A DNA stretch of 64,000 bases, taken from an uncultured archaeon. GTDB taxonomy: Archaea; Thermoproteota; Bathyarchaeia; TCS64. Below, in pieces: positions 48,373-55,002 of this stretch. The notes under the pieces were generated by a model. It made no database searches, was not told where the DNA came from, and was given only the letters and a program-made list of their open reading frames with translations. Made by a program: the position numbers and the translations under genes. The number at the start of each line of letters is the position of its first letter. Position 1 is the first letter of the stretch. The DNA lies in NCBI GenBank assembly GCA_938048735.1, contig CALIUM010000007.1, forward strand, positions 62,001 to 126,000, read 5' to 3'.

Positions 48373-49530
48373 ATGGACTTCGAGCGTGAGTTGCTGATGA
48401 TCCCGGGGCCCACGATGGTCTCGCCCCGGGTGCTTAGGGCCCTCTCAAGGCCGGTGCTCAGCCACTGGTCCAACGAGTTCATCCAGGCTTTCACAGAGGC
48501 CTTACAGCTCCAGAGGAAGGTCTTCTGCACGGAGGGGTACCCCTTCCTGATAGCTGGGAGCGGGACTCTGGGGATGGAGGTTGCTATGGCGAATATTGTG
48601 GAGAAGGGTGACAAGATCCTATGTGCTGAGAATGGCTTCTTCAGCGAGAGGTGGGCTGAGATAGTGGAGGCCCATGGGGGTGTCGTGGACCACCTCAAGT
48701 TTGAGTGGGGTCAGCCAGTGGACCCGAAGAGGCTCAGGGAGAGGCTTGAGGAAGGGGACTATAAGGCCTTCACAGTTGTCCACGTTGAGACCTCCACGGG
48801 TGTGGCGAGCCCCTTGGACAGGATTGGAGAGGCTGTTAGGGGGCTTGACAGCCTCTATGTGGTCGACTCGATAAGCGGTCTCGGAGGCATGCCTGTGAAG
48901 ATGGATGAGTGGAACATAGATGTCTGTGTAACAGGAAGCCAGAAGGCCCTAGGCGCCCCACCCGGGTTGACGCTTCTATGCCTCAATGATAGGGCTTGGA
49001 GGCTTGTGGAGTCCAGGAAGACGGGGGTCTCAGACTACTATGCAGACCTGAGGAGGTGGAAGCCTGTAATGGAGAGGCCCAGCGGGTACTTCGCCACCCC
49101 GGCCACAGGGATGGTCCTGGGGATGCTTGAGGCCATGAGGATAGTCCTCGAGGAGGGTCTAGAGGCGAGGTGGATGAGGCATAAGGCCTATTCTGAGGCT
49201 TTCAGGGCTGGGTTGGAGGCGATAGGGCTTAGGATCTTCCCTGAGAAGGGGTATGAGGCCCACACCCTCTCGGTTCCAGAGGTCCCCCAGGGGATTAACG
49301 ACGGGGAGTTGAGAAGGTTGATGAGGCAGAAGCATAACGTCGTCATAGCGGGGGGTCTTGGCAAGCTGGCGGGTAAGATATTGAGGATAGGCCACATGGG
49401 GAGCGCGACGACCAATGATCTCGTGGCCACCATGGGAGCCCTCGAGATGTCCCTGAAGGAGTCGGGCTACAGCCTCAAGCTGGGGGAGGGAGTAGGAGCC
49501 CTAGAGGAGACCCTCCTATCAAAGGGGTAG
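48373..49530 (+). CDS. Class V aminotransferase (alanine/serine-glyoxylate-type)
   Basis: LLMIPGPTMVSPRVLRALSRPVLSHWSNEF, YVVDSISGLGGMPVKMDEWNIDVCVTGSQKALGAPPGL. Confidence 0.93.
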   Translation: MDFERELLMIPGPTMVSPRVLRALSRPVLSHWSNEFIQAFTEALQLQRKVFCTEGYPFLIAGSGTLGMEVAMANIVEKGDKILCAENGFFSERWAEIVEAHGGVVDHLKFEWGQPVDPKRLRERLEEGDYKAFTVVHVETSTGVASPLDRIGEAVRGLDSLYVVDSISGLGGMPVKMDEWNIDVCVTGSQKALGAPPGLTLLCLNDRAWRLVESRKTGVSDYYADLRRWKPVMERPSGYFATPATGMVLGMLEAMRIVLEEGLEARWMRHKAYSEAFRAGLEAIGLRIFPEKGYEAHTLSVPEVPQGINDGELRRLMRQKHNVVIAGGLGKLAGKILRIGHMGSATTNDLVATMGALEMSLKESGYSLKLGEGVGALEETLLSKG

Positions 49531-50979: not shown

Positions 50980-53244
50980 ATGCTGAGGTTCTGGGTTCTC
51001 GATGTTGCCACGGAGATGGAGGATGGGCCCGTTGCATGGATATGGTCCATAGGGGAGGATGGCTCTAGGCTCATAGTTAAGGAACCCTTCAGGCCGGTCT
51101 TCTACTTAACAGGCGGGGAGCTTGAAAGGATCTGCACATGCTTGGAGGCCTCAAAGGAACTCTCTATCTCCAGCTTCAGCCTGGTCGAGAGGAGGCTCTC
51201 CGGGAGGTCATTGAGGGCTGTGATGGTCTCCGTATTGACCGACGAGCTTGAGGGGCTGGCTGAGAAGGTGAGGAAGAGGTGTGGGGCTGAGGGGGTCTTC
51301 GAGGCCGACATAAGGGCCTCCAGCCAGTTCCTCCTAAGGAGGGGGCTTAGGCCTTCATCTTGGCACGCCGTGGAGGCCTCCGAGTCCGGGGCTGTGAAGG
51401 GCTACAGGGTCTACAGGGCATCAGGTGACTACCAAAGGCTTGAGAGGGTTGAGACACCAAGGCTTAGGGTCTTGGCCTTCGACTCCTTCTTCCTGGCCGG
51501 GAGGGGAACCCCCAAGCCAGAGTTTGACCCTGTCATGGTCATCACGGCCGTAACTGAGAGAGGGGAGGTGAGGCAGTTCTCTGGAGATGAGAAGGACCTT
51601 CTAAGGGGCTTCATAGACCTTGTCGAGGGCTATGACCCAGATGTGATAGTCGGCTTCAACACGAACAGGAGGATCCTCCCGTACCTTACCGAGAGGTGTA
51701 GGAGGCTTGGGTTCAGCCTCTCCATAGGCAGGCTTGGAGCCGAGCCAAGGACAAGTGTATACGGCCACCAATCCCTTCAGGGGAGGCTGAACATAGACCT
51801 CTATGACCTAGCTGAGGAGACCCCTGAGATCAAGCTTGAAACCCTCGAGGAGTACTCCTCATATCTAGGCCTGAAGGTCGAATACGACACGATCGATGAA
51901 TATGACCTAGCGGAGGCCTGGGATAAGGAGAGATCAAGGGTTCTGGAATACTCTACGCAGAGGGCTAGAGGGATAATGGAGGTCTATAGGGCGGTCTCCG
52001 ACTACATATTCTCGCTCTCAGAGATCACGGGCCTCCCGGCGGACCATGTCCTCACGGCTGCAACCGGTTTCAGGGTTGAGAACTACCTAATGGGCCTGGC
52101 CATGGAGGCAGGTGAACTTGTTCCACCGAGGGGGGAGGCGACCTACATGACCTATGCAGGCGGGGTCGTGATGGAGCCTAGGGCGGGCCTACACGAGGAT
52201 GTGGCGGTCATAGACTTCAAGAGCATGTATCCGAACATCATGATGAAGTATAATATCTCCTTCGACACCCTTAGCGTCGAAGGCGTCCACAGAGCCCCGA
52301 ACCTACCCCACGCCTTCAAGGAGGAGGCTGGATTCATCCCTAGAGCCCTGAAGAGGCTCTTAGAGGAGAGGGAGAGGGCGAGGGGGCTCGCGGAGATGCA
52401 TCCTGAGGGCTCTGTTGAGAGGAGGGTTCTGGAGGCCAGGCAGAGGGCCCTTAAGGTCATAGCCAACGCCACATACGGGTATATGGGTTGGACCGGTGCT
52501 AGGTGGTACTGCAGGGAGGCTGCTGAGGCGACCTCAGCCTGGGGAAGGGAAACGATAAGGTCGGCCATGGAGAGGGCTAAGGAGCTGGGCCTGGAGATAA
52601 TCTACGGAGACACGGACAGCCTCTTCGTGAGGGACGACCCTGAGAAGATAAGGGGCCTCCTTGGATGGATAAACGAGGCCCTAGGCCTAGAGGCCAGGGT
52701 GGATAGGAGGTATAGGAAGATCCTCTTCACAGAGGCCAAGAAGAGGTATGGAGGCCTCACGGATGATGGGAAGATAGAGACCGTGGGCCTCGAGATCGTC
52801 AGGGGAGACTGGAGCGCCATAGCCAAGGAGGCCCAGCTCGCAGCCCTAGAGGCCATCCTGAAGGAGGGAAAGGAGGAGGCGGTGAGGAGGATCAGGGAAA
52901 CCATAAAGGCCTTGAGGGAGGGAAGGGTTCCCATAAAAAAGCTGATAATATGGAAGAAGCTGACTAAGGGTCTGGAAGAGTACGAGGTGGCGTCTCCCCA
53001 TGTAAAGGTGGCCAAGAGGATGATAGAGGCTGGGTGGAGCGTCAAGCCCGGAGACCTTGTGGGCTTCATCATAATGAAGGGGAAGGGGAGGCTATATGAG
53101 AAGGCGATTCCATACTTTGAGGCCGACCCATCAAGGGTTGATGTAGACTACTATATCGAGAAGCAGGTGATACCACCGGTGGCTAGGCTCCTCTCAGCTA
53201 TCGGGATACCCGAGAGGACACTTATGGGCTTAATATCAAACTGA
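50980..53244 (+). CDS. polB: Family B DNA polymerase with disrupted exonuclease motifs
   Basis: Motif A DFKSMYPNIMMKYNIS, motif B KVIANATYGYMG, motif C YGDTDSLFV intact; 754 aa. Confidence 0.95.
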   Translation: MLRFWVLDVATEMEDGPVAWIWSIGEDGSRLIVKEPFRPVFYLTGGELERICTCLEASKELSISSFSLVERRLSGRSLRAVMVSVLTDELEGLAEKVRKRCGAEGVFEADIRASSQFLLRRGLRPSSWHAVEASESGAVKGYRVYRASGDYQRLERVETPRLRVLAFDSFFLAGRGTPKPEFDPVMVITAVTERGEVRQFSGDEKDLLRGFIDLVEGYDPDVIVGFNTNRRILPYLTERCRRLGFSLSIGRLGAEPRTSVYGHQSLQGRLNIDLYDLAEETPEIKLETLEEYSSYLGLKVEYDTIDEYDLAEAWDKERSRVLEYSTQRARGIMEVYRAVSDYIFSLSEITGLPADHVLTAATGFRVENYLMGLAMEAGELVPPRGEATYMTYAGGVVMEPRAGLHEDVAVIDFKSMYPNIMMKYNISFDTLSVEGVHRAPNLPHAFKEEAGFIPRALKRLLEERERARGLAEMHPEGSVERRVLEARQRALKVIANATYGYMGWTGARWYCREAAEATSAWGRETIRSAMERAKELGLEIIYGDTDSLFVRDDPEKIRGLLGWINEALGLEARVDRRYRKILFTEAKKRYGGLTDDGKIETVGLEIVRGDWSAIAKEAQLAALEAILKEGKEEAVRRIRETIKALREGRVPIKKLIIWKKLTKGLEEYEVASPHVKVAKRMIEAGWSVKPGDLVGFIIMKGKGRLYEKAIPYFEADPSRVDVDYYIEKQVIPPVARLLSAIGIPERTLMGLISN

Positions 53245-53373: not shown

Positions 53374-55002
53374 TTGTATCAGGAAGGGTACGAGAACTCG
53401 TTGAATGAGATGGACAGGCAGCTTCTCGATGCCTTGAAGGCCGTCGATCCAAGGGTCTTCGCCGTAGCCCTCATCGACCTAGAGGAGGGTTATCCTGAGG
53501 TCTTAGCGGTCGCTGAGGATTTTAAGGAGGCCTTTCAGAGGCGCACGTTGAACCTCGAAGGGAGGGAGTTCGAGCTCCTTATCATAGATAAGGAGCTTTT
53601 CGAGTTGGATGTCCTGGGCTCGGCCCTATTAGAGGCTGTGGCATGGAGGCTCCTCCTCCCATACAGGGGGATAGTCGGAGGGGAGTACCTAGACGAGCTG
53701 GTTAGGAGGTACAGGTGCAAGAAGATCAGGGAGAGCCTCCAGGGCCTGGTTTTGGAGTATCCGGTTCTCTCAACGGAGTTATTGATAGACCCCAGATACT
53801 TTGTCGCCGATATCCTTCAAAGGATCTCTCATGAGGATCTCCCCCCCTCGACACTTCTCCAGAGGCTTGAGGAGGAGGGGCTCAGCTCCATCACGGGCTA
53901 TGAGGAGGCCATCCAGGACCTTGAGAGGGATGGTGTGATCTTCAGGGTGGACGGCTACTTCAAGGTCGACCCGGGTTTCGCTGGCTCTGTGAAGAGGAGG
54001 CTAGCCCTCCCCGACCATATCACCAGGGCGCATGGGCTATTGAGGAAGGCTTTGAAACGCGGCCCTAGTTGGGCTAGGGGGCTCCTCCGCCTCCTAATCC
54101 AGAGCCCCATAGAACCTCGTATCTTCACGGCTTTGAAGGGTGTGGAGGGCCAGAGGGCCAGTAGGTATGTCTATTATACCACGGCTAGGGGTTTAACACC
54201 CCTATCAAGGGCACTGGATCTCCCCTCAATGCTATCCACCCTTGAGGGATCTGAGGTGGAGGAGCTGAGGATCCGGAGGTATGGCAGCTTCCTCAACGAG
54301 GTTTACCTGCTCACCTACATGGCGGGCGGTGTGGATCGAAGGGTGATAATGAAGCGTTACACCTCCTGGACGGGTATGAAGTGGGCTCCGATAGTCCTCT
54401 GGACAATCGGGACGAGGAACTTCTCCGTCCTGGGCAGGACGAGGATGGAGAGGGAGTGCGCCATGTCAAGCCTCCTGAGGAGGGAGGGAATCCCAGCCCC
54501 AATGATCCTACAGGCGAGCTTCGAAGACCAGCTGATACTCCGAGAGTATATAGAGGGGGAGAACCTGGCGGAGATCGTGAGGATGGTGGTCAAAGGGGTA
54601 GGGGGGGAGAGAGAGCTTGAACTGATACGCAGAGCTGGCGGTCTTGTCGCGGCGGTCCACGGGATAGGCGCCACCCTAGGGGACTGCAAGCCCGAGAACA
54701 TCATCTCAGCGGAGGATGGCCCGACCATAGTAGACCTCGAGCAGGGGGAGAGAAGTAATGAGAGGGCCTGGGACCTCGCAGAGTTCATATACTTCTCAGG
54801 CCACTACGCCGACCCTCTGGACCCGGCTGCGAGAGTGGTCAAGGTCTCCGAATCCTTCATAGATGGATACTTAGAGGGCGGAGGTGAGGCCAGCTATGTG
54901 GCAGAGGCCTCGAGGCTGAGGTATGCGAAGGTCTTCACGCCCATAGTGCTCCCACACATCCTAATAGCAATTTCAAGGGCCTGCCGATCCAAGGCGGGGT
55001 AG
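53374..55002 (+). CDS. Protein with uncharacterised/HTH-like N-terminal half and C-terminal kinase-like domain
   Basis: C-terminal VAAVHGIGATLGDCKPENIISAEDGPTIVDLEQGERSNERAWDLAEFIYF; middle segment PSTLLQRLEEEGLSSITGYEEAIQDLERDGVIFR is wHTH-like. Confidence 0.75.
   Translation: MYQEGYENSLNEMDRQLLDALKAVDPRVFAVALIDLEEGYPEVLAVAEDFKEAFQRRTLNLEGREFELLIIDKELFELDVLGSALLEAVAWRLLLPYRGIVGGEYLDELVRRYRCKKIRESLQGLVLEYPVLSTELLIDPRYFVADILQRISHEDLPPSTLLQRLEEEGLSSITGYEEAIQDLERDGVIFRVDGYFKVDPGFAGSVKRRLALPDHITRAHGLLRKALKRGPSWARGLLRLLIQSPIEPRIFTALKGVEGQRASRYVYYTTARGLTPLSRALDLPSMLSTLEGSEVEELRIRRYGSFLNEVYLLTYMAGGVDRRVIMKRYTSWTGMKWAPIVLWTIGTRNFSVLGRTRMERECAMSSLLRREGIPAPMILQASFEDQLILREYIEGENLAEIVRMVVKGVGGERELELIRRAGGLVAAVHGIGATLGDCKPENIISAEDGPTIVDLEQGERSNERAWDLAEFIYFSGHYADPLDPAARVVKVSESFIDGYLEGGGEASYVAEASRLRYAKVFTPIVLPHILIAISRACRSKAG

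Follow-up and report, generated by a model that had tools for sequence, protein, structure and literature searches.

The window, 64,000 nucleotides from a Bathyarchaeia genome that is 94.6% complete, carries a gene for a family B DNA polymerase of the PolB3 type. Catalytic positions were set by alignment to 5MDN, KOD/Tgo-type PolBs and 186 PolB3 sequences, which places residues 168, 170, 232 and 328 of the window protein opposite the exonuclease carboxylates D141, E143, D215 and D315 of Tgo.

50980..53244, forward strand: PolB3-type family B DNA polymerase, 754 aa, ATG start, exonuclease-dead by sequence with polymerase motifs intact
51445..52014, forward strand: degenerate exonuclease domain, about aa 156–345, predicted fold kept (AlphaFold2/Foldseek), dN/dS 0.14–0.18 within the genus
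51481..51489, forward strand: Exo I site, D168-S169-F170 replacing D-x-E (alignment)
51658..51675, forward strand: Exo II site, N227-T-N-R-R-I232 replacing N-x3-F-D (alignment)
51949..51963, forward strand: Exo III site, Y324-S-T-Q-R328 replacing Y-x3-D (alignment)
52201..52239, forward strand: motif A, VAVIDFKSMYPNI, catalytic D412 (alignment)
52450..52488, forward strand: motif B, LKVIANATYGYMG, K492, Y499 and G500 (alignment)
52594..52629, forward strand: motif C, EIIYGDTDSLFV, D544 and D546 (alignment)

At the four exonuclease positions the window protein reads D, F, I and R: three of the four acids are lost, F170, I232 and R328 standing in place of E, D and D, and the Exo I aspartate D168 is the sole surviving carboxylate. 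The disrupted motifs picked out in an earlier sequence-only reading (DSF, NTNRRI and YSTQR) lie exactly at the positions listed above, D168 nonetheless being retained. Its claim that motifs A, B and C are intact is borne out by the alignment, in which every polymerase catalytic residue is present. In Pfam, the DNA_pol_B domain is matched in full and the exonuclease domain in part. The four carboxylates are typical (if not strictly defining) of PolB3, and the window protein departs from that pattern as it does from the 3'-5' exonuclease active site of a proofreading replicative PolB. The view of the enzyme as polymerase-competent and proofreading-deficient holds at the level of these residues, and we infer that the protein would have polymerase activity and lack exonuclease activity.

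The best solved relative is Pyrobaculum calidifontis PolB (5MDN, E 2e-175). An AlphaFold2 model of the window protein (pLDDT 91.4) has 5MDN as its best Foldseek match, with a TM score of 0.91, which predicts that the exonuclease domain retains its fold. When the suggested phylogeny against PolB1, PolB2 and PolB3 was run on the polymerase domain, the window protein grouped with PolB3 (support 97) and the PolB2 proteins formed their own clade outside it. By the marks of PolB2 taken together (membership of that clade, absence of Exo III, an operon with iRadA/PPB2), the window protein is not one, and PolB2 identity is ruled out by tree placement and operon context. On contig C28 the genome has a separate PolB2 gene, whose operon (L276:519–6476) places it after an orc1/cdc6-like gene, RadA and a degenerate RadA-like gene; this PolB2 keeps both aspartates of motif C (YADTDS) and has a degenerate exonuclease domain. 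Archaeal PolB2 (Dpo2) is likewise a B-family enzyme with a degenerate exonuclease site, but differs in its separate clade, the lack of Exo III, a motif C that is often altered and an operon with RadA-like genes. The earlier remark that the inactivated PolB2 group is generally thought to have lost polymerase function is outdated, since PolB2/Dpo2 is an active extender polymerase without exonuclease (PMC8764526, PMC11791011), the Sulfolobus enzymes being reported as polymerase-active (PMC8764526).

Two other species of the window genus carry the same ORF, at 90 and 87% identity and in conserved synteny, with the same pattern of exonuclease loss (DLLR and DFLR at the four positions). Within the genus the dN/dS of the gene is about 0.13, with values of 0.14–0.18 for the exonuclease domain and 0.10–0.11 for the polymerase domain; full-length ORFs in three genus members, the synteny and the low dN/dS together rule out a pseudogene, a frameshift or contamination. 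Across the clade of exo-lost proteins as a whole, too, the exonuclease domain has diverged more rapidly than the polymerase domain: at equal polymerase-domain identity (50–55%), exonuclease-domain identity is 37% in the lost group versus 52% in the intact group. Evolution of this domain is relaxed yet not free, and a structural or DNA-binding role probably remains.

The window neighbours of polB3 (purM-like, aminotransferase and Bud32-like kinase genes) are uninformative on function, while elsewhere the neighbour is dnaG, in an inherited arrangement, or a DHH gene, and gene neighbourhood was set aside as a functional clue. At 53374–55002 of the window, a 542-aa ORF carries a Bud32/Kdo-like kinase domain at its C terminus (NCBIfam arch_bud32, 3.7e-13, short of the cut-off), and its N-terminal part has no Pfam match. 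The DHH-family phosphoesterase gene lies near polB3 in the f35/f41 group (L055:8278–9486, L228–L231) and is directly convergent with it in L055.

The loss is not peculiar to one gene, since it is common to every PolB3 of the class that was examined, and the window gene proves to be no lone oddity, as the sequence-only reading had treated it, but a member of a large exo-dead PolB3 clade. All four positions could be read in 109 class sequences, none of which is exo-intact; of 77 PolB3s from outside the class, 45 are intact and the other 32 exo-lost. Counts of retained carboxylates are bimodal across the 186 PolB3s: four in 45, two in one, one in 110, none in 30 and never three. Practically every exo-lost protein has another residue in place of E170 and of D328; the acid that survives varies (D168 in some, including the window protein, and D232 in most Bathyarchaeia), a pattern that fits a single old loss followed by separate decay. 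D412, K492, N496, Y499, G500, D544, T545 and D546 are invariant in 141 diverged exo-lost PolB3s, one masked residue aside. Single in-frame TAG codons occur in otherwise open genes in three genomes (the PolB1 genes of G416 and G371 and the PolB3 gene of G222) and may reflect recoding or assembly error.

A tree built after removal of the motif columns unites 54 exo-lost representatives in a single clade (SH-aLRT 97); support is 99 when the polymerase domain is used by itself and L209 is omitted, and drops to 91 once PolB1 and PolB2 are included, in quick trees built without bootstrap, where the longer exo-lost branches make some long-branch attraction possible. The L209 protein (genome G464), which reads D, E, V and S, has an intact Exo I and has lost Exo II and Exo III; it sits beside exo-intact relatives and is a second, independent loss, apparently caught half-way. 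The best explanation as a whole is that the exonuclease was probably inactivated in an old common ancestor of all sampled Bathyarchaeia PolB3s and of several other lineages of the phylum. The window PolB3 itself groups with families f35 and f41 from outside the class and with L055, not beside L008 and L063, the PolB3s from its own family and order, and a single class clade is rejected by an AU test on 34 rows (p 1e-10), for which the group was chosen after the first tree had been seen. Compared with L055, L166, L167 and L178, the proteins of the window genus group with another lineage of the phylum. The simplest reading of these trees is that the genus acquired polB3 horizontally. Both in the window (48373–49530) and in L055 (1441–2595), a few kb separate polB3 from a class-V aminotransferase gene of similar type, which was possibly co-transferred with it.

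The search for a second PolB and for PolD returned PolB1, PolB2 and PolD in the host genome. PolD is present as DP2 and DP1, the latter with complete phosphoesterase motifs (DLH for DxH, GDLVD for GDxxD, GNHD, and GHVH for GHxH), and the host PolB1 has intact exonuclease motifs (DIE, NGDDFD and YCLQD). The suggestion that the enzyme might rely on a trans-acting exonuclease is consistent with this inventory, in which such activities are available from PolB1 and PolD encoded elsewhere. PolB1 is almost universal (377 of 398 genomes) and exo-intact in all 51 readable sequences; to our knowledge it is absent from Euryarchaeota.

Of the PolB3s sampled from the phylum, 60 of the 67 that are exo-lost come from PolD-positive genomes and 28 of the 31 that are exo-intact come from genomes without PolD. 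Of the seven exo-lost genomes in which PolD was unmatched, six are MAGs of 76–93% completeness and one is 98% complete. Fisher's test gives p 9e-15, which is not a fair probability as only about two exonuclease-loss events underlie the association, and we therefore set it aside as independent evidence. The other three exo-intact genomes encode PolD, and in Thermococcales, too, PolD coexists with a PolB3 that is exo-intact; PolD can therefore be no more than permissive: the link shows the setting in which loss was tolerated, not its cause.

Taken together, the window PolB3 is likely to be an accessory, non-proofreading DNA polymerase working beside a proofreading PolD and an exo-intact PolB1. 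This reading is favoured by two precedents. The PolB of Thermococcus kodakarensis, a euryarchaeal PolB3 that shares its cell with PolD as in the window host, is dispensable and takes part in Okazaki maturation and in strand displacement on the lagging strand, and its exo- allele D141A/E143A was introduced without difficulty (PMC13136892); a repair role was reported earlier (PMC6759347). The second is Sulfolobus islandicus Dpo2, an exo-less archaeal PolB able to act as an extender (PMC8764526). Wild-type T. kodakarensis PolB retains proofreading, unlike the window protein, in which the equivalent of E143 is naturally changed; usually both equivalents are changed in other Bathyarchaeia. Crenarchaeal PolB3 (Dpo3; P. 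calidifontis PolB) shares family, domain layout, polymerase motifs and predicted fold with the window protein, and 5MDN and the Thermoproteia-type PolB3s differ from it in keeping all four exonuclease carboxylates, mostly in PolD-less cells. Eukaryotic Pol zeta and Pol alpha are B-family enzymes that have lost the exonuclease and kept the polymerase, as here, but belong to a different subfamily, and neither a zinc-binding C-terminal domain nor accessory subunits were identified for the window PolB3.

On this accessory reading, the exonuclease site would have been inactivated in an old ancestor while the polymerase site stayed strictly constrained. The enzyme would bind a primer-template as other PolB3s do and extend it, could not remove a misinserted 3' nucleotide and would not idle by exonucleolysis. 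Its likely work would be short-patch synthesis, in which it fills gaps and displaces strands during repair or lagging-strand replication, with extension of mismatched or damaged termini as another likely job. We place translesion extension slightly behind gap filling or strand displacement, to which we give somewhat less than an even chance; a cellular role in translesion extension is possible if doubtful, one in primer extension or some other process is improbable, and it is less probable again that little cellular role remains. The C-terminal PCNA-binding motif of many relatives was not obvious in the window genus, which weakens a processive lagging-strand role.

As a translesion extender, the enzyme would act in the manner of Pol zeta or PolB2 on mismatched or lesion-containing termini and in effect replace a Y-family polymerase. 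B-family extenders typically lack the exonuclease (Dpo2, PMC8764526; Pol zeta), and the host genome, at its 94.6% completeness, gave no Y-family match. Y-family genes are also rarer among PolD-positive genomes with PolB3 (24 of 75) than among those without it (118 of 147), the difference within the class being marginal (21 of 39 carriers versus 25 of 32 non-carriers, p 0.046). However, PolB3 and a Y-family polymerase occur together in those 24 genomes, the anticorrelation tracks lineage and may also track growth temperature, and a PolB2 operon with RadA-like genes is already present for translesion work. No damage-response genes were found near polB3 in the neighbourhoods inspected. We regard translesion extension as a tentative second choice.

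It is unlikely that the enzyme is a primer-extension polymerase like eukaryotic Pol alpha, taking short primers from primase before PolD. Pol alpha is likewise marked by exonuclease loss, and a DnaG-like Toprim gene lies near polB3 in 10 Bathyarchaeia loci, but no primase-binding element was identified in PolB3, and the two genes converge, an arrangement also known from Crenarchaeota with an exo-intact PolB3 (PMC4104785). A convergent dnaG is thus common to crenarchaeal PolB3 and many Bathyarchaeia, and the neighbourhood is inherited.

We give a similarly low probability to a decaying gene, in which PolB3 is redundant in cells with PolD and PolB1 and is heading for loss, exonuclease first. PolB3 was matched in only 122 of 257 class genomes (E<=1e-80), so that the enzyme is dispensable in the roughly half of Bathyarchaeia without a match at this threshold; several PolD-positive families lack it wholly, and the faster evolution of the exonuclease domain points the same way. 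Against this stand the invariant catalytic residues of the 141 exo-lost proteins, full-length ORFs with a polymerase-domain dN/dS of about 0.1, and a loss that is old and persistent across the class. A hidden exonuclease, with displaced acids and a site still working through neighbouring D/E residues, is very improbable: some exo-lost proteins have an acid adjoining Exo III position 328, and positions 307 and 341, E and D in the window protein, carry an acid in 95% and 87% of the exo-lost PolB3s and never in an exo-intact one, but the surviving carboxylate varies by subgroup with at most one left in nearly all, the Exo I glutamate and Exo III aspartate are replaced almost throughout, and alignment of the exo-lost PolB3s gave no conserved new acid within the three motifs.

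Beyond the accessory reading, these proteins might form an ancient exo-free PolB3 subfamily, a prokaryotic counterpart of Pol zeta or Pol alpha dedicated to non-proofreading synthesis (lesion or lagging-strand) in Bathyarchaeia and other PolD archaea and partly replacing the Y-family, although we hold this broader proposal to be speculative. An exo-dead PolB3 subfamily appears undescribed. Passages of Makarova 2014 (PMC4104785) and Kazlauskas 2020 (PMC7544198) describe exonuclease inactivation for PolB2 and make no mention of an exo-dead PolB3. Searches for Bathyarchaeota with PolB3 or with the exonuclease domain gave no match in literature that excluded supplements and subscription journals, where an earlier mention is possible.

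In nearly all archaea, PolB3 is regarded as a polymerase of replication or repair that proofreads. A proofreading-free branch in a widespread uncultured class indicates that work can be reallocated among PolD, PolB1 and PolB3, and if proofreading is dispensable class-wide, PolB3 is probably not the copier of the bulk genome there. The exo-dead PolB3s also constitute a natural set of proofreading-free, possibly thermostable polymerases, with which the question of what PolB3 does in PolD archaea becomes testable.
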